53,714 nucleotides of DNA, taken from IMG/VR virus record IMGVR_UViG_3300020465_000886, positions 1-53,714 of that record. One strand, given 5' to 3'. The notes beneath the pieces are model-generated. The model was given only the letters and a program-made list of their open reading frames with translations. It had not been told where the DNA came from and made no database searches. This DNA comes from a virus. Below are positions 5,911 to 52,566 of the stretch, piece after piece (position 1 is the first letter of the stretch; each line of letters begins with the position of its first letter). Both the position numbers and the translations under genes were made by a program.

Positions 5911-6880
5911 TTAGCATTCCTGAATAGTTTTGAGCATTATCGCTCATTCTTTGTAAGTCCCATTTAGCACAGAACTTCATAAAGTGTATGCCTATGTTAG
6001 CAACAGGATCTTTCTGTTTGCCTTCATTCATTCTAGTCAAACACAATTCTTTAATCTCGTCTGGTTGTTCAGTTAGGTCAATTAGGATCTTGTTTCTTTC
6101 AAAGTCATCTTTAACTCTGTGTTCTGTTTCCTCATGGTCGACCCAACGTTGCAACATAAAGTTATTATAATTATATCCGCCTGTATGTCTATCTTCAAAG
6201 GCTTCCATAATACCTGTTTTGTTTTTAGTACCTTTTAACCTTGCACCAGGATATGCACTAAACACGTTGTCTGAACTGTCTCCTCTAACACACTTTTCAA
6301 AGAGTGCAAACTCAGGATCAATAGCCTTCTTAGGTTCTTTAGTCTTTTTGTCTATGACTGCTTCTCCTGTTTTTAAATCTTTAAAGCCTTCTAATGTAAC
6401 TACTTGGTCAGTTGTACCGTTATACTGCGTTACATTGGGTGCTAAGAGTTGATAGAAGTCACTATCAGTACTGATAATATAATGATTATCATCTGGATGT
6501 TGTTGAATCCATGTAGCAATCATATCGTCTGCTTCTGCTTGTTCGCATTGTACGACACTACAATTAGTCTTTTCACTAAAGAACTTAACCATATCATCAT
6601 ATGCTTCAAAGTATAGTTCATCATCTTCTTGTTCTCTAACACTCCTTTGATCCATTATAACTCTACGATTTGCTTTGTAAGGAGTATAAAAGTCTTTACG
6701 CCAACTTCTACCTTCTAAACATAATACTATATGATTGCCGTCAAACTCTCTCCAGCACTTGTTAATACTGTTAAACATGATGTGCATTGCCATACCTATC
6801 TTCATATCGATAGTACCTTTGCCACCAACATGCTTGGCTCTCATAAACATATTCAATCCGTCAACAAGTAAGTAATTCAT
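5894..6880 (-). CDS. rnh: RNase H / 5'-3' exonuclease (T4 Rnh-like flap nuclease)
   Basis: 328 residues, close to the T4 enzyme's 305. The PIN/FEN core is visible: YLLVDGLNMFMRA at the N-terminus, EAEADDMIA in the middle and ISTDSDFYQLL, giving the acidic metal-binding residues, then KCVRGDSSDNV as the helix-hairpin region that grips DNA. It removes RNA primers and 5' flaps during lagging-strand synthesis with the polymerase and clamp coded at 21.6-25.6 kb. The ATG at 6880 overlaps the stop of the upstream membrane-protein gene. Confidence 0.85.
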   Translation of the reverse strand: MNYLLVDGLNMFMRAKHVGGKGTIDMKIGMAMHIMFNSINKCWREFDGNHIVLCLEGRSWRKDFYTPYKANRRVIMDQRSVREQEDDELYFEAYDDMVKFFSEKTNCSVVQCEQAEADDMIATWIQQHPDDNHYIISTDSDFYQLLAPNVTQYNGTTDQVVTLEGFKDLKTGEAVIDKKTKEPKKAIDPEFALFEKCVRGDSSDNVFSAYPGARLKGTKNKTGIMEAFEDRHTGGYNYNNFMLQRWVDHEETEHRVKDDFERNKILIDLTEQPDEIKELCLTRMNEGKQKDPVANIGIHFMKFCAKWDLQRMSDNAQNYSGMLNGRCG

Positions 6881-11845: not shown

Positions 11846-12323
11846 GTTGTTCTCCTGTTTTATTGTTCCACCACTCTTCGTATGGAAACACTATCCATTG
11901 TTTGCCCTCTTCTTCATCTAGTTCTTTAGCAGTAATTTGTACACTGAAATCACTAGACATCTTTTCTAATAATGTTACATACTTCACATTATCTACCATA
12001 CCTTCCTTTTCAACAATATCGTGTATGCCTTTTAATGTTGTGCCTGTATCATTAATGTCATCAATTACAACAATTCTTTTACCATTGTATTTAGACAAAA
12101 GTTGTCGTAATTGATTAGAATTTTGTACTACCCCATCTCTGGTCTGCCATTCAAATCCATGAAATGGAATATCAAAGTAATGACTCATCATTACACCAAT
12201 TGGAAATCCACCTCTACCTGGACCTAATATTACATGTGGTCTCAACATCTTTGTTGCCATCTGTTGAGTTATATCTGACATCATGCCATTAATATCTTCC
12301 CAACTGTAATATAATTTTGTCAT
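11838..12323 (-). CDS. Purine-type phosphoribosyltransferase
   Basis: 161 residues with the PRPP-binding signature IVVIDDINDTGTT (84-96) and the N-terminal GPGRGG loop (34-39), as in xanthine/guanine or hypoxanthine phosphoribosyltransferases. It would join a base to PRPP; guanine or xanthine salvage would feed GTP to the adjoining folE. The exact base is not visible. The ATG sits exactly at the predicted transcription start of the promoter 12330-12358 and has no Shine-Dalgarno site, so this mRNA may be leaderless. Confidence 0.8.
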   Translation of the reverse strand: MTKLYYSWEDINGMMSDITQQMATKMLRPHVILGPGRGGFPIGVMMSHYFDIPFHGFEWQTRDGVVQNSNQLRQLLSKYNGKRIVVIDDINDTGTTLKGIHDIVEKEGMVDNVKYVTLLEKMSSDFSVQITAKELDEEEGKQWIVFPYEEWWNNKTGEQRG

Positions 12324-28773: not shown

Positions 28774-29382
28774 TTAATATCCTGATGGTATAACTTGATT
28801 GTTTATAATATAATTATAAACGTCTTCCCAATTCTTAGCAACCATGCCATCAACTTTTATGTTCATGTTATGACCATGTTCAATAAGAATCCCCTTAAAG
28901 CCTACTTTTACACCTGCATGTAAATTGGCTGGCTTGTCTTCTATCCAGTAACAGCCTTTGTATTTTTTAGCAAGTCTTTCTAGTGCTTCGTCTTTATCAG
29001 CACCTGTGTCTAAACAAATAACTTTACTGAATGCATCTCCCATAAGTTTTTTAAGATTCCTTTCTCTTAAAGCATGAGCATAAGGATCTAAACTTAAACT
29101 TGTTAATGCAATAAACTTGTATCTATGTTGTTCGTGTAACTTCTTAATAAAAAATTGTGCATCTCTCAATGGTGGGAGAAAACCTATTGCGGCACTTTCA
29201 TTGAAAGTCTTAACCATTTGGTTTCCTTGTTGATGCGTTAGTCCGTATCTATCTCCAATACTATATTGGAATTGATAGCCTTCTACTTTTTCGTGTCCAT
29301 GGTGTTCTGCCCAAACACTAAATCCTTCTTCCCAATCTAGGACACATCCATCAATATCCGTTATAATAAATTTTTGTTTCAT
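28774..29382 (-). CDS. HAD-family phosphatase, possible nucleotidase
   Basis: 202 residues. ITDIDGCVLDWEEGF gives the DxDG nucleophile motif; LTSLSLD and a late WIEDKPANLHAG (motif with acidic residues) complete the HAD core. Similar proteins act as 5'(3')-deoxyribonucleotidases; the substrate is inferred. The ATG lies six nt after a consensus -10, with no ribosome site, so the mRNA is probably leaderless. Confidence 0.75.
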   Translation of the reverse strand: MKQKFIITDIDGCVLDWEEGFSVWAEHHGHEKVEGYQFQYSIGDRYGLTHQQGNQMVKTFNESAAIGFLPPLRDAQFFIKKLHEQHRYKFIALTSLSLDPYAHALRERNLKKLMGDAFSKVICLDTGADKDEALERLAKKYKGCYWIEDKPANLHAGVKVGFKGILIEHGHNMNIKVDGMVAKNWEDVYNYIINNQVIPSGY

Positions 29383-34230: not shown

Positions 34231-35325
34231 CTATTCAGTTGGGAATAGGTACTTCCAATACTTCTCCTTGAACTCTTTCTTACCAGCCAACTTACGAGGT
34301 TTAATATCTATATCGTGGTCAGCCAATACAGTCTTAGCAGAGTATATTACTAACTCAGGCTCAAAGTTCTGCATGATGAATTCAAAGAAGTAATCAACTC
34401 CTTCATCAAATGCTTCTTCACTTCCATTATCAGAAAGTTCTGCAAGTTCATAACACAATCCTATTGCAAATGAATATTGTGCAGACTTCTCTTTGATGTC
34501 TAACTTCTTAACTTTACCATTAAGAACATCTTCTGGATTAGGAAGTTTACTAGCAATCTTTCTGTGTTCACAGAACTTGATAGCCATTCCTTCACCAATA
34601 GCACCGGCAACTTCTGCCTTTTGCTGGAAGTCTGTGGCAGTATCAAAGCCTTCAGTGTTAAGAATCTCACTAACATAGTTCCAACTTCTTGGAGTAGCAA
34701 AAGCCTGACTAGATGTTTTAGGATCAAAGTCAAACAAGTCTGCTTTACTGTATGTAAGATAACCAATCACATCTTGGTGAACTTTGTTATTGGTTGCCCA
34801 AATGCTCCAATCTTCAAAGTTTACTTCCATATTGATGTGTCTGAATCTGTTTGCCAAAGGACTAGGCATTCTATAAGTAACACCTCGGTCAGTCTCCCTG
34901 TTACCTGCGGCAACAATTTTTACATTCTTAGGAAGAATGTATTGACCAATCCTTTTGTTCAATACTAATTGATAAGCCGCCGCCTGTACACTTGGTGGTG
35001 CAGAGTTCAACTCATCTAAGAATAAAACAATAGTGTCATGTGCATCTGCCATTTCCTGATTAGGAAGGTCGGCAGGTGGTGACCATTCCATTGCATTAGT
35101 TTCTGGATTACGGAACGGATAACCTCTAAGGTCGGTTGGTTCCATTAATGCTAGACGCAAATCTATCATGTAAGCATTACCTAACTCACCTGAATCAACA
35201 ATTTGCTGAACTAGTTCTGATTTACCAATTCCAGGAGCACCCCATATAAAAATAGGTCGCTCTGCCTTCATTGCTCTTAGAACGATGTCATTTGTATCGT
35301 TCGGTCTAACTTGTAGTGTGTCCAT
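34231..35325 (-). CDS. MoxR/CobS-like AAA+ ATPase
   Basis: 364 residues. Walker A GAPGIGKS (29-36), Walker B IVLFLDELNSAPPS, sensor 1 AAGNRETDRG. LxxxEPTDLRGYP and the PSPLANRF arginine-finger region mark the MoxR/CobS clade. Such ATPases work with VWA proteins to insert metals or to remodel enzymes; marine T4-like phages often carry a CobS-like gene. GGAG lies six nt before the ATG. The next gene on the strand is the metallopeptidase-VWA protein. Confidence 0.85.
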   Translation of the reverse strand: MDTLQVRPNDTNDIVLRAMKAERPIFIWGAPGIGKSELVQQIVDSGELGNAYMIDLRLALMEPTDLRGYPFRNPETNAMEWSPPADLPNQEMADAHDTIVLFLDELNSAPPSVQAAAYQLVLNKRIGQYILPKNVKIVAAGNRETDRGVTYRMPSPLANRFRHINMEVNFEDWSIWATNNKVHQDVIGYLTYSKADLFDFDPKTSSQAFATPRSWNYVSEILNTEGFDTATDFQQKAEVAGAIGEGMAIKFCEHRKIASKLPNPEDVLNGKVKKLDIKEKSAQYSFAIGLCYELAELSDNGSEEAFDEGVDYFFEFIMQNFEPELVIYSAKTVLADHDIDIKPRKLAGKKEFKEKYWKYLFPTE

Positions 35326-42242: not shown

Positions 42243-45200
42243 TTAAGACCCCATCGAGAAGTATATCCAAGCATGAGTTGTTTGTCCAAACCCACTACTT
42301 GAACCTGTTTCACTTCTTGTTAATGATAATGTCACATTACTAGTACCCAATGATCCATGTGGTGAACCACTTCCTGCTAGTTTTAAAGTAGTATTGTTTA
42401 CACTTGCACTCTGCCCTTTAATCAAATACTCCGATGTGGACTGACTGTACCCGTATGCTGTTATGGCTACTGGAGGGAAATTATAGTTGCCTCCGAAGTC
42501 TACTATGACTTCACAACTGTTTGATGCCGCATTGTTTATAGTAACGTTTCCAATATTTGTACTTGCATCACTATAACCACCTGAGCCTTGTGCTGTGTCT
42601 ATTGCTCCTGCAGATGTATAGTATAGTTTGAAGTATTCAAAAGATGAACTACCTCCACCGCCACCGCCAGTATTATCTGCCGCTGGTGCCCAACTACTAC
42701 CATTATATTTTAAAACTTGTCCTGATGCCGCACCTGATGTACTAACATCTGATAAATCACCTAATGCACTTGCACCACCACCTGATTGGTTAGCCCAACT
42801 AAGTACACCACTACCGTCTGTTTTAAGTACTTGGTCAGCACTACCATCATCGTTTGGTAATGTTAATACATAGTTTGCACCTGCACTATGTGGAGGTCCT
42901 TGTATTGTAATACCATGTGAATTGTTTTCACAGTTAAGTTGGAAACGTCCTGCACCATTACCACCGTTGCCGGAGTTACCTTTAAATATTACTCTACCTG
43001 TGCCATGTGGTGATAATTCTATATTACCATTACTTGCACTTGTTATATCTTGTCCATTAACATCTAATGAACCACCTAGTTGTGGTGTTGTATCTGAAAC
43101 AATGTCAGTACTTCCTAAAATACTTGTTAAGTCTACATTACCTGATTGTCCTGATAAACTAATTACATTGCCAGATATTGTTAAATCTTGTGCGTCACTA
43201 TCACTTGTAATAAATGAACTAAGGTCTGGTGGTGTAAATGTAAACACACCAGTACCACTGTTATATGATAAACTACCATTGCCACTATTACTTGCTGTCG
43301 TAACACTTACGTCATTAAGTCCTGCACCTGCTGGGCCTGTGGATCCTGTGGCTCCTTGTGGGCCTTTGATGTTTCCTACATCTTGCGTTGAACTGTTTGA
43401 ATAGTTAAGTACTAAATTAGCACCACCAACTAAACTTACACTTGTTATACCAACACCGTCTGTACCGTCAGCACCTGCATCACCCGTAGGACCTGCAACA
43501 CTACCTGTTACATTTATTGTATTACTATCACTTAATGTGAGTGTTAATGCACCACCACTTACTGATGCACTTGAAATAGTTGTGCCATCTGTACCAGCAT
43601 TACCCTGTGGTCCTTGTGGACCTGTAGCACCCAACCCACTTAAATCTAGTGTGGTGCCATCGTATGTTAGGTCACTACCACTTAATGATATAGTAGGTCT
43701 GTTTTGTACATCTGTATGATTACCAGTAAATGCTACTGTGGATAATTGTGTATTACTGTTGTTTAAGGCATTGGCAACTTCTGCCAAACTGTCTAAATTG
43801 ACATTGGCTCCGCCTTTTAATAATGTAACCTGATTGTCAACGTATGCTACAACATTCGTATTTGCAGTATTAACAAAAGACTGCATATTTGAATTTGCTG
43901 TATTAACATAGGATTGGTCTGCATAGTTGTTAGTTGAGAGGTATGATGCAACATTACTGTCACCATAATTACCTGCCACGCCTGCCAGTGTGCTTGTTAA
44001 ATCTACATTACCTGATTGTCCTGTAAGGCTTATAACATTACCACTAATGGTTAAGTCTTGAGCCGCCAATACACTTAAATCAACTGAGTTACCACTTGAA
44101 ATACTTAATGAACTTGTACCTGCATTCCAACTTAAACTTTGAGTTGTTGCTTGAATGTTAGCAGGAGTAAATGTAAATACACCTGCATTGTTATATGATA
44201 AACTTCCGTTACCACTTGGTGTTTGACTTGAAACACTGAAATCTGTTAGGGAAACATTACTGTTTCCTCCACCACCGCCGCCTCCGCCGGTGCTTGTAAA
44301 TGTAATACTATCGCCTGCATCACTTGTTGTAATTGACATGTTAGTACCAGCAACAAATGTTAATGTGTCTGAAGAACTGTCTGCAACTACATTGTTTTGT
44401 CCTGATACTGCTATTTGTCTAAATGCTCTTGTGGCTATGTCTGTTGCATCAAATCCAATAGTAACTCTTTTGTTTGTAGTGTCAGGAGTAATAGTAATAT
44501 TACCATCACCTCTTAAATCTACCTTACCTGTTGTTTCTACAAACTGTGTTGAGCCATTTGTAACTGTAATATTGGATAGTAATCCACTAGTATTAGCAGT
44601 ATCTACATTGGCTATTAAGGCATCAACTTGTGCTGATGTATAACTGTCTGCCGCTAGTCTATAGTTAGCCGCGGGTTGTGATCCTAAGTTAGTGGCATTT
44701 ACTGCCAGGTCAGCCGTACCTCTAAAGTATGTACTGAACACTTCATTGTATTTGTTTGAACTGTTACCTAAGTCATATGTATTATCTAATGCTGGAGCAT
44801 TGTTGGCTGTGGTAACCATTGCTTGTGCCACGTGAGCATTAAAGGCTGTATTGTCTGTTTTTACGGATATATCTTGTTGATTGGCAAAACTTAATACGTT
44901 TGAACCATTTGTTACTAGTATTTGATTAGCAGTACCGTCTGCTGTTGGCATTGTTATACCAGCAAATGTTAAGTTTGTTGTAACTAAATTATTTGCAGTA
45001 ACAGAACCATTTGCTACTGTTACATTGTTGCCTGAACCTAAGAAACTAAATGTTGTGCCATCAAATGTTAAACTGTCTGATCCATTTAATACATTACCAG
45101 TAGCATCTGCAACTAAAACTGTGTTTGCATTAGCACTTCCTAATGTAGTTGATCCTGCACCAACAACTGCATCAATAAAAAGTACATTGTCAGTCAAAGT

Positions 45201-45440
45201 CAATGTGGTGTTAGCACCAGACTGTAACTTGTAAAATTCTAAATATGAACCATCATTTTGTTTGTAAAGTCCAACACCTTGTGAGCCTACGTTTCTACCT
45301 TGCCCAGTTACGTTAGCATTGGCACTTACTGCCGAAGTTTCATTCTTAAATGAACCTGTTGAGGCATCATATACTAATATTTGATTGTCAGTAACATTAT
45401 CTAAATTAAAAGATATTGTTTCATTTGATCCTATTGCCAT
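42243..45440 (-). CDS. Collagen-repeat fibre protein
   Basis: 1065 residues. Low-complexity Asn/Ser/Thr/Gly stretches, an NANVTGQGRN start and three short collagen-like Gly-x-y blocks (for example GATGPQGPQGNAGTDGT, GPTGDAGADGTDGVG and GPQGATGSTGPAGAG) around residues 610-715. QDLTISGNVISLxGQSGNVDLT occurs twice. The C-terminus (about 130 residues) is a probable tip domain. Trimeric fibres of this type bind host receptors. Late box at 45465-45474; ribosome site AGGA. Confidence 0.75.
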   Translation of the reverse strand: MAIGSNETISFNLDNVTDNQILVYDASTGSFKNETSAVSANANVTGQGRNVGSQGVGLYKQNDGSYLEFYKLQSGANTTLTLTDNVLFIDAVVGAGSTTLGSANANTVLVADATGNVLNGSDSLTFDGTTFSFLGSGNNVTVANGSVTANNLVTTNLTFAGITMPTADGTANQILVTNGSNVLSFANQQDISVKTDNTAFNAHVAQAMVTTANNAPALDNTYDLGNSSNKYNEVFSTYFRGTADLAVNATNLGSQPAANYRLAADSYTSAQVDALIANVDTANTSGLLSNITVTNGSTQFVETTGKVDLRGDGNITITPDTTNKRVTIGFDATDIATRAFRQIAVSGQNNVVADSSSDTLTFVAGTNMSITTSDAGDSITFTSTGGGGGGGGNSNVSLTDFSVSSQTPSGNGSLSYNNAGVFTFTPANIQATTQSLSWNAGTSSLSISSGNSVDLSVLAAQDLTISGNVISLTGQSGNVDLTSTLAGVAGNYGDSNVASYLSTNNYADQSYVNTANSNMQSFVNTANTNVVAYVDNQVTLLKGGANVNLDSLAEVANALNNSNTQLSTVAFTGNHTDVQNRPTISLSGSDLTYDGTTLDLSGLGATGPQGPQGNAGTDGTTISSASVSGGALTLTLSDSNTINVTGSVAGPTGDAGADGTDGVGITSVSLVGGANLVLNYSNSSTQDVGNIKGPQGATGSTGPAGAGLNDVSVTTASNSGNGSLSYNSGTGVFTFTPPDLSSFITSDSDAQDLTISGNVISLSGQSGNVDLTSILGSTDIVSDTTPQLGGSLDVNGQDITSASNGNIELSPHGTGRVIFKGNSGNGGNGAGRFQLNCENNSHGITIQGPPHSAGANYVLTLPNDDGSADQVLKTDGSGVLSWANQSGGGASALGDLSDVSTSGAASGQVLKYNGSSWAPAADNTGGGGGGSSSFEYFKLYYTSAGAIDTAQGSGGYSDASTNIGNVTINNAASNSCEVIVDFGGNYNFPPVAITAYGYSQSTSEYLIKGQSASVNNTTLKLAGSGSPHGSLGTSNVTLSLTRSETGSSSGFGQTTHAWIYFSMGS

Positions 45441-45464: not shown

Positions 45465-45474
45465 GTATTTATCG
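45465..45474 (-). promoter_or_regulatory. T4-like late promoter
   Basis: CGATAAATAC on the minus strand, 24 nt before the ATG at 45440. Confidence 0.7.
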
Positions 45475-45539: not shown

Positions 45540-45953
45540 TTATGCTGATAATCTGATATAGTTTATAGCACCATACGTGGAATCGTATGTGGTACCATCG
45601 CCCAAATAACTTCTATCTACTTTAACTCTTAAGTAAGTAAAGTTACCTGTGATAGTATATGCTTCTACTCCAGTGAACCCATCTGTTCCTGAAATTGGAA
45701 ATTGTTTATATCCACCTGCCGCCGCAGTTAAACCTCCTTGTATTTGTATGTCAAAGAAGTCTGCGTCTGTGGGTGTAAGTGCTAGAGTACCTTGTACACT
45801 AACTCTGCCTTTAAATGAGTTATATGATATTGCTATGGTGTGAATACCGTCTGAATATCCATAATAACTGTCTCCTTCTACATTACTTGTAGTCAAAGAC
45901 ATAGTAGAGCCTGTTGAACTCTGCATTAAAACTGATTTTCTATTGATGCTCAT
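45540..45953 (-). CDS. Probable virion protein, small beta domain
   Basis: 137 residues, Ser/Thr/Gly-rich, beta-prone (VSVQGTLALTPTDADFFDIQ). Likely a fibre or decoration protein. Its ATG follows the late box CGATAAATAC by four nt and has no ribosome site, so its late mRNA may be leaderless. Confidence 0.65.
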   Translation of the reverse strand: MSINRKSVLMQSSTGSTMSLTTSNVEGDSYYGYSDGIHTIAISYNSFKGRVSVQGTLALTPTDADFFDIQIQGGLTAAAGGYKQFPISGTDGFTGVEAYTITGNFTYLRVKVDRSYLGDGTTYDSTYGAINYIRLSA

Positions 45954-45957
45954 ACTT

Positions 45958-45967
45958 GTATTTATCG
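45958..45967 (-). promoter_or_regulatory. T4-like late promoter with start codon at about +1
   Basis: CGATAAATAC on the minus strand; five nt separate the last box A from the ATG at 45953. Confidence 0.7.
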
Positions 45968-45970
45968 CTT

Positions 45971-46657
45971 TTAGAGATTTTCAACGACCAATACACTGGT
46001 GATACACTGAACACAATCATTATATTTTAGTTTTAGAATCATTAAAATGTCATCTAAGTCTTCACTTTTGACATATACTGTACGTTGATGTTGCCTTATC
46101 TCTCCATCGGACGAACAACTTTTAACAGTCTCTCCAATTCTTTTAAAGTGTTTTACTGTATCTTTCCATTTATCTGATGCTTGTAAAGATCCATAGAATG
46201 ATCCATGGTGTCTGCCGTGTGGGTATTTAAAAATAAGTTTAGTATCATACTTTTTAAAATAATTATCTTTTCTTATACTATGTTGTTTATAGTCCCAATA
46301 GTTTTCAGAATTTGTTAATGCTAAAAATGAACAATGCTCTTTATCATAAGGCCCTGTTACTTCTAATATTTGTTGTTTAAATTTTGTAATAAACATATCA
46401 AATGTGTCCTTATGTTTAAAGTAAGCATAACGTGACCAACCATTTAATAGTTTTACTGTTTCAGAATATGATTCACAAAAATCCCATATCTCTAAAAACT
46501 TTTTATATCCTTCCTCATGTGAGTCATCAAAGTTCCAACTAGGTATAATATTATTACCTGCTAGTTTTATTCTGTAAGGATATTTACCGTAGAATACTTT
46601 AGGACTTCCACTAAGTTCTAAACCTTTATACTTGTTCCTTTGGTTCAGTGGTTTCAA
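45971..46657 (-). CDS. Hypothetical protein after clpA
   Basis: 228 residues, basic, aromatic-rich (WNFDDSHEEGYKKFLEIWDF), soluble. Start is uncertain: the frame opens with TTG at 46657, 32 nt inside clpA, and no ATG is near. It shares the early dnaJ-clpA transcript. Not recognised; possibly an adaptor or substrate of ClpA by context. Confidence 0.65.
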   Translation of the reverse strand: MKPLNQRNKYKGLELSGSPKVFYGKYPYRIKLAGNNIIPSWNFDDSHEEGYKKFLEIWDFCESYSETVKLLNGWSRYAYFKHKDTFDMFITKFKQQILEVTGPYDKEHCSFLALTNSENYWDYKQHSIRKDNYFKKYDTKLIFKYPHGRHHGSFYGSLQASDKWKDTVKHFKRIGETVKSCSSDGEIRQHQRTVYVKSEDLDDILMILKLKYNDCVQCITSVLVVENL

Positions 46658-48824
46658 TGTTTAATTCTCCATCTATTGTTTTTACAAATACAGTTACGTT
46701 TTTCAAATCTTCAAATAGTATTTTCTTACTTAAAGGCTTTTTAAGTTCACCTTCAAATAATCTTTTTAAAGGTCTAGCACCCATTGTAGGTTCATAGCCA
46801 TTCTCAACAAAGTAATCTATTGTGTCATTGTCTAAATTAATTTCTATGTTTTTATCTTTGAGTTGTTCGTTAATTTCATCTTCAAGACGTTTTACAATTT
46901 TCTGTATTACTTCTGTGCTTAACTTATTAAATTTGATAACAGAATCTATTCTATTTCTAAACTCTGGTGTAAAGAAACTTTGTACTGCTTTAACATCTAC
47001 ATTCTCTTTGATGTTTTTACCAAAACCAATTTTAAGTTTTTCAGCATCAGAGGCTCCTAGGTTACTTGTCATGAGTAAAACTACATTGGTAAAATCAGTT
47101 GTTTTACCTGTAGCACCTGTTAATCGTCCATCGTCCATCACTTGTAATAATACCTGTAGTACTTCTGGTGCGGCTTTCTCAACCTCATCTAATAGAAGTA
47201 CGCAATTAGGATTTTCTTCAACACTTGTAAGTAGTTGACCTTGACCCATTTTACCTTCGGCATGTCCAACGTAACCAGGAGGTGCTCCAATTAGTTTACT
47301 AACACTATGTCTTTCTTGATACTCACTCATATCAAAACGTATTAGTTTGCTTTCTAATTGTTCTGCTAACTGTTTGGCTGTTTCAGTTTTACCTGTACCA
47401 GTAGGACCTAATAGTAGGAAAGAACCAATAGGCTTGTTAGGCTCTCTTAATCCAGACTTACTAACAAGTATTGCTTCTACAATTTGATCCACTGCATCAT
47501 CTTGTCCAAACACTTTTGTTTTAATTCTTTTATCTAAACTCTTGTAACCTTCTGTGCTGTCTATATCAATTACATCTTTACCAATGTTGCTCATCTTACT
47601 AATAACAGAAAGTACATCATCCATTAGAACTGTTTGCTCTCCCCTTAATTTTGTTTTTGCACCTGCGGCATCCATAACGTCAACTGCTTTATCTGGAAAG
47701 TATTTGTTCTTGATATATCTGTCTGCTAAATCAACACTTTTTTCTAACAAGTCAATCTCATAATTAACTTGATGAAATTCTTCAAAGTATGGTTGTAATC
47801 CTTTTACAATCTCTGTTGTAGTTTCAACATCAGTTGGCTCAACTTCTACTCTTTGGAATCTACGCATTAATGCTCTATCTTTTTCAAAGTGTGTGCTATA
47901 TTCATCGCTAGTAGTTGCACCCATAGTAAGCAACTTACCTCTACCTAATATTGGCTTCATTAAGTTTGCTATGTCTACACTACTGCCACCAGCACTACCG
48001 GCACCCATAATCATATGTATTTCATCAATAAACAGTATAACGTTTTTGTTCTTTTCTAAACTATCTAAAACTATTTTAATTCTTTCTTCAAAGTCACCTC
48101 TGTATCTAGTTCCTGCAAGTAGTCCACCTACATCTAAACTATATACAATTTTTTCTTTTAATGCATTTGGTACTTGACCTTCTACTATCTTTAATGCTAG
48201 TCCTTCTGCTATTGCAGTTTTACCTACACCAGGTTCTCCTATAAGCAGTGGATTATTTTTCTTACGTCTTGCAAGTATGTGAACAACATCTTCGACTTCA
48301 TCCTGTCTTCCTATTAAAGGATCTATTTCACTTGCCGCCGCTCTTTCATTTAGATTAATTAAAAATTCTTCTGCTTCTTTAAGACTTTGAGCAGTAGTAA
48401 TATGTTTAGTAATGTATTCAACTACTGCTAATCTATTAATACCATTTAACTCACAGAAGTATGTTGCATGTGATTTATCCTCAGATAAAATGCTTACAAA
48501 TATATCAACAGGATTTACTTGGTCTCTAGCACTAAAAATTACCTGTGCAAATGCTCTTTGCATAACACGTTCTACAGTAGCAGTCTTTTTAGGTTTACCA
48601 TCCCATTGTGTTTCGCCTACTAAACCATTGAACTCTTTATCATCTAGATAATTTTGTAAATCATTAATAGCAGTTTCTTTATCATCTGTTATAGCATCTA
48701 CTATTTCTGATATCTCAGGTGTTTCTAATAGGCACAACATCAAATGCTCAACAGTCACATATTCATGATTTCTGTTTTCAGCATACTCAATTGCACATTC
48801 TATTACGTTGTCTACTCCATTCAT
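46626..48824 (-). CDS. clpA: ClpA-like AAA+ unfoldase
   Basis: 732 residues (E. coli ClpA 758). Residues 1-140 form the Clp N-domain, D1 has GEPGVGKT (196-203) and LFIDEIHM, D2 has GPTGTGKT and [17 protein letters not shown] lies in D2 after TSNLGAS, at the site of ClpA's IGL ClpP-binding loop, so the protein should dock on a ClpP peptidase. TPEFRNRID and MGARPLKRL match ClpA closely. No clpP is seen here, so the host's is probably used. It follows dnaJ by eight nt in an early operon. Confidence 0.92.
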
Positions 48825-48832
48825 ACTAATAT

Positions 48833-49645
48833 TTACTCTTTGCTGTTTTTAATATCTTCTATTCTTGAAATCTGTTCTTCTGTTAGGTTTGGACTTACAA
48901 CTTCCACTACAACAATAAGGTTTCCTGCCCTACCATTATTAGGATTTGGCATACCTTTTCCTTGTAATTTTAGTTGTGATCCAGGGTTTGTTCTTTTAGG
49001 CACTTTTATATCTAGTTGCTTATTATCCAATTGAGTAACTCTTACTTCAGTGCCAGTCATTGCTTCTAAATAATCTATCTGTACTCTACAATATAAGTCA
49101 TCGCCTCGTCTATCCCATTCAGGTGGATTGTGTATAAAACATCTAACAATTAAATTTCCTGGTGGTAATCCTTGATGTTCTGTTGGACCTTTACCAGGCA
49201 TATTAAATTTAGTACCATGTCTGGTTCCTGCAGGTATAGTAATTTTAAATGTACCATATCCTGTGTTTATCATTTTCTCTACACCATGATAAACTTCATG
49301 TAATTCTAAATGTAAGTCTACTACTCCGTCAGGGTTCCTTGTTGGCTGTCTTTGTTGCTGTCTAAATCCACCCCCAAATATTTCTTGGAATACATCTCCA
49401 AAGTCTCCTCTGAAGTTAAAGCCGCCTTGACTAAATGGGTCGCCGCCTTGGAATGGATTTGGATTATCGTATTGCTGACGTTTTGCAGGATCGCTAAGAG
49501 TTTCGTATGCTTGTTGTATTTTCTTAAATTCATTTTCATCTCCACCTTTATCTGGATGATGTTTACCCGCAAGTTTACGATAGGCTTTTTTAATTTCCTT
49601 GTCGTCTGCTTGAGGTGATACACCTAATGTTTGATAATGATCCAT
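48833..49645 (-). CDS. dnaJ: DnaJ/CbpA-like co-chaperone
   Basis: 270 residues. J domain at 1-60 with HPD (30-32), a Gly/Phe linker at about 63-97, then two C-terminal beta domains ([29 protein letters not shown]). The four CxxCxGxG zinc repeats are missing, making it a type II (CbpA-like) protein. It would steer host DnaK to substrates. The ATG is six nt after a consensus-like -10 and lacks a ribosome site, so a leaderless early mRNA is likely. Confidence 0.9.
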
Positions 49646-49651
49646 GACTTA

Positions 49652-49680
49652 ATTATACACTTTATAAAAATGAAAGTCAA
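49652..49680 (-). promoter_or_regulatory. Sigma70-like promoter of dnaJ-clpA with start codon at +1
   Basis: TTGACT (49675-49680), 17 bp, TATAAT (49652-49657). Lies in the gap between the acyl carrier protein and dnaJ genes. Confidence 0.8.
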
Positions 49681-49688
49681 GGACAAAG

Positions 49689-49919
49689 TTAGGAGAGATT
49701 TTCTACTAAATCTATTATATCTTGGATAGTTTGTATGCTATCGATTTCATCATCTGTTGTTTCAATGTCAAACTCTTTTTCAAGTTCTAAAACAACTTGA
49801 ACACTATCCAAACTGTCAAAGTTTAAATCGTCGAATACATGTGCTTCAGGAACAATTTTATCCTTGTCAATTCTAAGTTCTTCTGATATAATTTTTGTAA
49901 TACGTTCTACGGTGGTCAT
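49689..49919 (-). CDS. acpP: Acyl carrier protein
   Basis: 76 residues, the normal ACP length, acidic four-helix protein. NFDSLDSVQVVLELEKEFD has the DSL motif with Ser36 for the phosphopantetheine arm. It carries acyl chains for lipid or other acyl transfers. The host's holo-ACP synthase would have to charge it. Two nt after the lipoprotein gene, so it is in the operon of envelope genes. Confidence 0.9.
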   Translation of the reverse strand: MTTVERITKIISEELRIDKDKIVPEAHVFDDLNFDSLDSVQVVLELEKEFDIETTDDEIDSIQTIQDIIDLVENLS

Positions 49920-51229: not shown

Positions 51230-51981
51230 GGCCTTGCTATTAACACTTGGTCAGTAGCAGGATTATGAAATACTATATGTTTGTTGATTGGTATGATGTT
51301 TAAATTACCTCTCATGCTCTCTAAAGTTTTCACTAATGACTTATCCCAATCGAAGTCTAATGCCGCTTCGGATATGCCTGCTTCTTCTAGTGTTACCTTT
51401 CCTTCTCCAAATTTTACAAATTCTAACTGTACGTTATACTTATAGTCCTTTAAAGTTAGAATGTCATTTTCTAGAACCGCACTTTGGATTATTGCATTGT
51501 CTTTTAAGAAGTTTACAATGCTTTCTTCCTTTTTGCTTTTCTTATCTGCTTCAAATTCTTCTTTAGTCATATACTTGTCAGGATCTGTGATAACATATTC
51601 ATCTAACAATGGATCTGATATATCAAAAGAATCATCTGACAAGAGAGGTTTTACTTTCCAATTCATTCTGCCTGATGTGTTTTCTATATCTAAAACATAC
51701 TCTTTTAACTTATCCAATAATCCTTCTTCTCTGTCTACTTCTACAAACACCATATAAAGATTGTCCTCATTTGGATTAGGTGTTACTTCAACATCTCTGA
51801 AATTGAAATGACTTTTTTGTAAAAAGTTTTTAAGGTCTGCTCCAACTTTTTCTTCAGTAACGTAAAAACCTATTACAGATATTTCTTCTTTCTTACCTGT
51901 TTTAGGTTCATACTCATCTATACTAATGTTAGATGAAATTACTTCTTCTAAGTCACCGTGCCTAATATTTTCATTTATCAT
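51223..51981 (-). CDS. Conserved marine phage protein, likely virion-linked
   Basis: 252 residues, acidic, alpha/beta. It pairs with the next gene in the same late operon and overlaps it by 4 nt. A ferredoxin-like first domain is suggested by NLYMVFVEVDREEG and a helical C-terminal domain follows. Function unknown. Confidence 0.65.
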   Translation of the reverse strand: MINENIRHGDLEEVISSNISIDEYEPKTGKKEEISVIGFYVTEEKVGADLKNFLQKSHFNFRDVEVTPNPNEDNLYMVFVEVDREEGLLDKLKEYVLDIENTSGRMNWKVKPLLSDDSFDISDPLLDEYVITDPDKYMTKEEFEADKKSKKEESIVNFLKDNAIIQSAVLENDILTLKDYKYNVQLEFVKFGEGKVTLEEAGISEAALDFDWDKSLVKTLESMRGNLNIIPINKHIVFHNPATDQVLIARPC

Positions 51982-52535
51982 ATTATAGGTGCTCCTGGAT
52001 CTACTGGTGGTGCTAAAGGATCAGCCTGTGGTTGTTGGTCTAATGATTGGTCTTTTGCACTTTGGATATCTTCCATATCAATGTAGGCATCTTCTGCCGC
52101 TTCAACTTGCTCTGTGCTAAACTCATCTACAAATCTTCTTGGCATTTTGATTTCTACAATCCATACAGGCAATCTTTCTGTTTTAGCAACACGTCTTGGA
52201 AGTGTTCCTCTTACTTTGATTTCTGTATCTTCTATGCCTTCAATCTTTTTTGATTTAACTAAATCGTCTTTGTACATTTTAACTTTACAGTCATTTTCTC
52301 TAAGACGTCTAATTGCATATGGATCAGGCATATCTTCTTGTGGATACATTAACGCAACTTCAATAAAATACCTGCCTAATTTAGGGCCAGCAACTATTTC
52401 TCCTTTGTTCCAGTTCTTGTAAGCATAAACATCAAAACTGTCTATAACACCTTCGAACTCTAACAACATGTCTAAAAGAGTATTTGTTTGTGATATCTTC
52501 TTTACGTTGTCGTTTATAATCTTTAATGTTTGCAT
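51978..52535 (-). CDS. Conserved marine phage protein, first of a late operon
   Basis: 185 residues, alpha/beta with a disordered Pro/Gln/Asp-rich tail (QPQADPLAPPVDPGAPI). Similar in style to the virion-linked proteins of T4-like marine phages. A late box at 52555-52566 lies upstream. Function unknown. Confidence 0.65.
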   Translation of the reverse strand: MQTLKIINDNVKKISQTNTLLDMLLEFEGVIDSFDVYAYKNWNKGEIVAGPKLGRYFIEVALMYPQEDMPDPYAIRRLRENDCKVKMYKDDLVKSKKIEGIEDTEIKVRGTLPRRVAKTERLPVWIVEIKMPRRFVDEFSTEQVEAAEDAYIDMEDIQSAKDQSLDQQPQADPLAPPVDPGAPII

Positions 52536-52554: not shown

Positions 52555-52566
52555 GTTATTTATCAC
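52555..52566 (-). promoter_or_regulatory. T4-like late promoter
   Basis: GTGATAAATAAC on the minus strand, about 20 nt before the ATG at 52535; it lies in a divergent region with the plus-strand phoH gene. Confidence 0.65.

Follow-up and report, generated by a model that had tools for sequence, protein, structure and literature searches.

What does a large phage do with a dnaJ gene and a clpA gene set side by side among its structural genes, and whose ClpP and DnaK would the two products work with? The locus that raises this question lies on a linear stretch of 53,714 bases, hereafter the window, which is the whole of one IMG/VR viral record (IMGVR_UViG_3300020465_000886) and probably a fragment; that its source is a large T4-like phage follows from a DNA polymerase of family B (phrog_262), from PhoH and spanins, and from late promoter motifs of the T4 type. 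A previous, sequence-only reading had recognised both genes and an early promoter, and had taken the lack of clpP and dnaK to imply that host partners are used and that host proteolysis could be redirected. Comparison with relatives confirms that the dnaJ-clpA feature is real, conserved and non-trivial, and supports that reading in part: the genes and promoter were read correctly, but it was misled on ClpP by the edge of the fragment. In our judgement, the cassette probably belongs to a phage-owned ClpAPS protease with a DnaJ arm that would use host DnaK. Phages are usually described as users or inhibitors of host proteases; here many mostly environmental jumbo phages, together with isolates that can be handled in the laboratory, conserve a whole set of protease, adaptor and co-chaperone, part of which stands under an early-type, predicted leaderless promoter within a block of late genes. 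This opens the questions of which proteins a phage degrades and why a peptide deformylase accompanies the cassette.

A dnaJ-clpA cassette behind an early-type promoter

The dnaJ gene (48833..49645, minus strand) encodes a class B (type II) J-domain protein of 270 residues that matches PF00226 (E 1.2e-24) and PF01556 (E 4.5e-35), and its assignment to type II in the sequence-only reading holds: there is a J domain with the HPD motif at residues 30-32 (49550..49558, minus strand), a G/F-rich linker seen in the sequence and a DnaJ_C domain, with no match to a zinc-finger domain. The closest solved structure is Thermus DnaJ2 (E 1.7e-41). Directly behind it, clpA (46626..48824, minus strand; phrog_4871) encodes a double-AAA+ unfoldase with an N domain, 732 residues long, whose closest solved structure is Escherichia coli ClpA (7uiv_A), aligned over residues 11-721 with 43% identity (E 1e-187), as expected of the full-length ClpA that had been claimed. 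The Pfam Clp_N match is weak, yet over the cut-off, and all of the AAA+ motifs checked (Walker A and B, pore loop and Arg finger) are present.

The same reading had named alignment of the IGF loop with the IGL loop of E. coli ClpA, which docks on ClpP, as a check on its proposal. The two do align: IGF occupies residues 599-601 (47022..47030, minus strand), and it is found at the loop position in 93 of 99 aligned ClpAs, 98 of which are from phages. ClpA may therefore be expected to dock on ClpP through this loop. Residues equivalent to E23, E28, T81 and R86 of the E. coli ClpA N domain, which we take to be the ClpS site, are retained in 80-97 of 98 sequences. Both genes are under strong purifying selection in comparison with the closest relative, L002, the ratio of nonsynonymous to synonymous substitution rates (dN/dS) being 0.105 for dnaJ and 0.079 for clpA, and structural genes flank the cassette in nearly all of about 100 loci, and also in the isolate PA5oct.

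Upstream of dnaJ stands a sigma-70-type promoter, TTGACT-N17-TATAAT (49652..49680, minus strand), whose TATAAT box ends 6 nt before the dnaJ ATG. Since a lone sigma-70 match is unremarkable in AT-rich DNA (the promoter scan of the window returned 32 sites of 9/12 or better, against 38.7 expected), we took conservation as the evidence rather than single matches. Sites of 11-12/12 precede dnaJ in 52% of 81 distinct upstream regions, compared with 0.4% of shuffles and with 0-2% for the genes o7, o6, o10 and phoH, and a strong sigma-70 promoter stands before dnaJ in 50 of 83 distinct relatives. Among the near relatives with a readable dnaJ upstream region (L002-L014), the site is kept 5-8 nt before the ATG amid surrounding sequence that is mostly unrecognisable. 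This is the arrangement of a T4-type early unit, with consensus -35 and -10 elements that relatives conserve and that the late neighbours lack. As architecture, an early-type promoter set apart from the late genes is well supported; the early timing of dnaJ-clpA expression we infer from the promoter type.

Of the 50 sigma-70 promoters, 39 have 5-9 nt between the end of the -10 box and the dnaJ ATG. By the established spacing between a sigma-70 -10 box and its transcription start, this would place the start on the dnaJ start codon or within about 2-3 nt of it. We predict a leaderless early dnaJ mRNA, and a Shine-Dalgarno-like sequence precedes dnaJ in just 5 of 77 relatives, compared with 68 of 88 for clpA. 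A corollary of such a start would be that dnaJ is poorly translated from late read-through mRNA, so that DnaJ would be made early and at no other time. Leaderless transcripts as such are already known from phages (PMC5312081). Within the window, 4 of the 11 strong sigma-70 sites lie exactly 6 nt from an ATG (that of dnaJ and those at 29382, 12323 and 6157, minus strand), a pattern that suggests a phage early-promoter consensus and a class of leaderless early genes; the ATG at 12323 belongs to a phosphoribosyltransferase and that at 6157 is internal to a longer open reading frame (ORF). The spacer end AAAATCCGGTATAAT is common to two of the three ATGs at 29382, 12323 and 6157.

The flanking genes are of late type. 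Downstream, the cassette is bounded by o10 (45540..45953, minus strand; phrog_14467), a virion structural-type gene whose ATG follows the T4-type late promoter motif GATAAATA (45959..45966, minus strand) at a distance of 5 nt, and the tail gene at 42243-45440 has the same motif at 45466..45473 (minus strand). The upstream late unit starts with o7 (51978..52535, minus strand; phrog_12928), a virion structural protein gene whose motif lies at 52557..52564 (minus strand). ATAAATA occurs no more than 60 nt upstream of o7 in 58 of 66 relatives (3.8 in shuffles), of o10 in 37 of 58 (1.9) and of the tail gene in 7 of 10 (0.65). In the PA5oct record the homologues of o7 and o10 carry the annotation ESI-MS/MS (electrospray ionisation tandem mass spectrometry), which DnaJ and ClpA do not. 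In several relatives, too, no more than about 5 nt separate GATAAATA from the start codon of o10, so that some late transcripts may likewise be leaderless. The last gene of the upstream late unit encodes an acyl carrier protein (49689..49919, minus strand; PF00550); among near relatives, only the window and L002-L004 have it between the spanin-like gene and dnaJ.

ClpP, ClpS and DnaK in related phages

The window contains no clpP, dnaK or clpS. The sequence-only reading was right to report clpP and dnaK as missing, but in a linear fragment of 53.7 kb the observation is uninformative. Its dnaJ starts 4.07 kb from the window end, and clpP in relatives lies 10-17 kb upstream of dnaJ, so that the expected place of clpP falls outside; we therefore rejected the missing gene as evidence for the use of host ClpP. 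The distances, all on the same strand, are 17.0 kb in G001, 10.5 kb in G002, 12.6 kb in PA5oct and 13-14.4 kb in G005, G009, G012 and G013. A ClpP-family gene is present in 17 of 37 records, and the catalytic triad (E. coli Ser97-His122-Asp171) is intact in all 13 of the 13 ClpPs aligned. G001, whose ClpA is 94% identical to that of the window, encodes a ClpP with an intact triad, a ClpS and a peptide deformylase. At the residues that we take to form the IGL pocket of E. coli ClpP, its ClpP is identical at Y62, I90, M92, F112 and L114, and differs by F82Y, L189I and Y60S. A second, divergent ClpP-like family, some members of which have proline-rich N-termini, occurs in other jumbo records (L124-L127); it is distinct from true ClpP and was kept out as another class.

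We also considered whether the phage ClpP could be a head-maturation protease, a role that is disfavoured because a separate S77 prohead protease is found in the larger genomes (PA5oct, Atu_ph07, Phosso, G023, G026 and G033); the scanned genes around clpP in G001 include none recognised as a head gene.

Seven records, G001, G002 and G005 among them, have ClpS, and each of the seven has ClpP as well. It is rare more widely, being present in 18 of 50,697 public phage records. The 18 include the complete genomes of PA5oct, Atu_ph07 and Phosso, all three of which encode DnaJ, ClpA, ClpP and ClpS together. clpS-clpA in bacterial order was seen in CAKLQF020000008 and CAKLQH020000043 ('Acinetobacter phage MD-2021a'), which may be mislabelled host DNA. 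DnaK was not found in the three complete genomes, nor in any other record except that of one relative, G033, and DnaJ would for this reason most likely partner host DnaK. The host partners implied by the sequence-only reading thus hold for DnaK but not for ClpP, which relatives encode themselves. In G033 the dnaK gene lies about 0.7 kb from clpS on a 364 kb contig (L132, G033:284000-295000).

About 37 relatives (L026-L081, L106, L137) have a gene for peptide deformylase, with the motifs GIGLAANQ, EGCLSFP and QHEFDH, between dnaJ and clpA, as does Phosso; in G001 and G005 the gene lies elsewhere. Since N-formyl removal precedes N-terminal processing, the enzyme would fit a theme of protein maturation and turnover. 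A further member of an N-degron pathway, leucyl/phenylalanyl-tRNA transferase (Aat), was found in none of the 31 records searched, and a phage Aat that completes the pathway was rejected on this ground. N-degrons must then come from a host enzyme or from proteolysis; we treated Aat as an optional member of the set, because the host enzyme could serve.

The gene behind clpA

The third gene of the unit, orf3 (45971..46657, minus strand; 228 residues), has a TTG start that overlaps the end of clpA, and genes of its family occupy the same place in relatives. The sequence-only reading had thought it a possible adaptor and had called for a search for co-occurrence; this brought to light a family of 58 ORFs, the window's own included, at the same position after clpA in the loci examined, though with none found directly after clpA in PA5oct or Atu_ph07. 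A single-protein scan with orf3 gave no match, and the family was detected by synteny alone. A seed profile built from distant loci scores strongly on most members and weakly on the window copy (E 0.0054, 14.4 bits), which lies above the best reversed decoy (0.07, 10.8 bits); the weak match means that the link of the window copy to the family rests on position and on intermediates. Neither a sigma-70 nor a late-type promoter precedes orf3, and it is probably cotranscribed behind clpA for that reason.

orf3 is the fastest-evolving of the genes compared, with 63% identity where ClpA has 94% and a dN/dS of 0.324. It has no credible Pfam or PHROG family and no match to ClpS or another known family. 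An AlphaFold2 model (predicted local distance difference test score, pLDDT, 80) has two ferredoxin-like repeats. Foldseek gave no match in the PDB at E<=0.001, and the BFVD matches at that threshold are uncharacterised phage proteins only; the fold search otherwise returned just the common ferredoxin-like arrangement (best Z 5.6, mostly over residues 19-118), a non-match that proves nothing. Its position and rapid change make orf3 a fair candidate for a host-facing specificity factor, and a role as adaptor is possible; the recognisable phage adaptor is ClpS, encoded elsewhere. One could go further and propose that orf3 is a phage-specific substrate selector. As an adaptor or anti-adaptor, it would direct the early ClpA, whether paired with the ClpP of the host or that of the phage, against defence or regulatory proteins of the host. 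We consider this doubtful; if true, dnaJ-clpA-orf3 would be a dedicated counter-defence degradation module.

Competing explanations and known systems

We propose that host RNA polymerase would transcribe dnaJ-clpA-orf3 from the sigma-70 promoter, as a leaderless message, before the flanking T4-type late genes are expressed. ClpA hexamers would then dock on ClpP through the IGF loop; the partner is most likely phage ClpP, given that the ClpP of relatives is phage-encoded, 10-17 kb upstream and on the same strand, and host ClpP may be an early stand-in. Phage ClpS, where present, would bind the conserved site on the ClpA N domain and hand over N-degron substrates, and DnaJ would bring in host DnaK, by which clients would be held or refolded. 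Such a system would probably serve to sustain proteostasis, and to clear host, defence or misfolded proteins, in a long infection during which host expression is shut off.

Several observations weigh against this proposal. The window being a fragment, a ClpAPS assignment leans on the clpP and clpS of relatives. A clear early promoter is lacking for clpP in 11 of 12 cases, and the late motif is present in 2 of 12, so that ClpA and ClpP may peak at different times. Four records of about 100-190 kb (G022, G027, G032 and G035) have clpA and no detected clpP; they are fragments, and so not decisive. Of 83 upstream regions of dnaJ, 33 have no sigma-70 promoter, those of PA5oct, Atu_ph07 and Phosso among them, which means that early control would be specific to a clade, this lineage included.

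Some of these observations are what one would expect if phage ClpA instead docked early on host ClpP and redirected host proteolysis to targets picked by its N domain or by orf3. The intact IGF loop, the early-type promoter, the positional linkage and rapid evolution of orf3, the relatives' records with clpA and no clpP, and the possibly later production of phage ClpP all agree with such a hijack. Close relatives, however, encode their own ClpP and ClpS, and the window edge explains the missing clpP, and we regard the hijack as unlikely. A pair of virion-assembly chaperones, in which ClpA, largely independent of ClpP, would serve as unfoldase or disaggregase and, with DnaJ, help the very large tail proteins encoded alongside to fold, is another reading that we regard as unlikely. 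It would account for the position of the cassette among structural genes in nearly all of the loci and in PA5oct, and Iyer et al. (2021, PMC7824862) suggested that ClpA and DnaJ of jumbo phages act in assembly. Late transcripts might also read through into dnaJ, because no terminator-like site was found in the window before dnaJ on its strand. Yet the promoter in this clade is of early and not late type, the IGF loop is strictly conserved where a role without ClpP would not need it, and the PA5oct record has no mass spectrometry mark on DnaJ and ClpA. Finally, dnaJ and clpA are ubiquitous in bacteria, and some database 'phage' records with clpS-clpA look bacterial, as they might if these were host genes acquired by chance, through recent transfer or an assembly chimera, with no selected role in infection. 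The purifying selection on both genes is strong (dN/dS 0.08-0.11), and with gene order kept in about 100 loci and the promoter architecture conserved, this is very hard to credit.

A phage-owned ClpAPS protease has its closest analogue in that of E. coli. The ClpA of the window shares its domain layout, its Walker, pore-loop and Arg-finger motifs, the IGL/IGF loop and the equivalents of E23, E28, T81 and R86, and the relatives share the ClpP triad, most of the docking pocket and ClpS. The phage system differs in being phage-encoded, in that clpA shares a unit with dnaJ and not with clpS, in the replacement of IGL by IGF, and in that no leucyl/phenylalanyl-tRNA transferase was found in the 31 records searched. 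Atu_ph07 and PA5oct have the same genes in the same dnaJ-clpA order, and PA5oct also has the same neighbourhood (phoH, structural genes, dnaJ-clpA, structural genes); in neither was a sigma-70 promoter found before dnaJ or an orf3-type gene directly after clpA, and the C-terminal half of the PA5oct DnaJ aligns poorly.

The individual genes are already known. The genes that Attai et al. (2018, PMC6102473) listed for Atu_ph07 include those for ClpX, ClpA, ClpB, a ClpP subunit, ClpS and DnaJ, for which they suggested a part in assembling virions, controlling replication or clearing aggregates. For jumbo phages, Iyer et al. (2021, PMC7824862) described ClpP, ClpS, ClpA and DnaJ, and took ClpS to be an alternative to ClpP. 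In the moraphages, large aquatic phages with T4-type structural genes, ClpA (VOG02072) and PhoH are core and DnaJ is frequent, all of which recalls the window (PMC12619734); we found no mention of ClpP in that text, which describes neither a ClpS set nor a promoter. By the title of Perrody et al. 2012, which is cited there, a J-domain protein of RB43 interacts with host DnaK; the DnaJ of the window differs in being a complete class B protein whose gene shares a unit with clpA. In the open-access literature we found no paper in which dnaJ-(def)-clpA-orf3 is taken for a conserved early unit or its promoter is reported; what appears to be new is the cassette as a conserved unit, along with the architecture of its promoter and the family of orf3.

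Two further genes deserve mention. In one subgroup of relatives a gene that is lysozyme-like by sequence alone lies between orf3 and o10 (L005, 12838-13302; L007, 7481-7954). Elsewhere in the window, a gene for an AAA_5/MoxR-like ATPase (34231-35325) is preceded by a strong sigma-70 site, and MoxR-vWA pairs have been reported in jumbo phages (PMC7824862).

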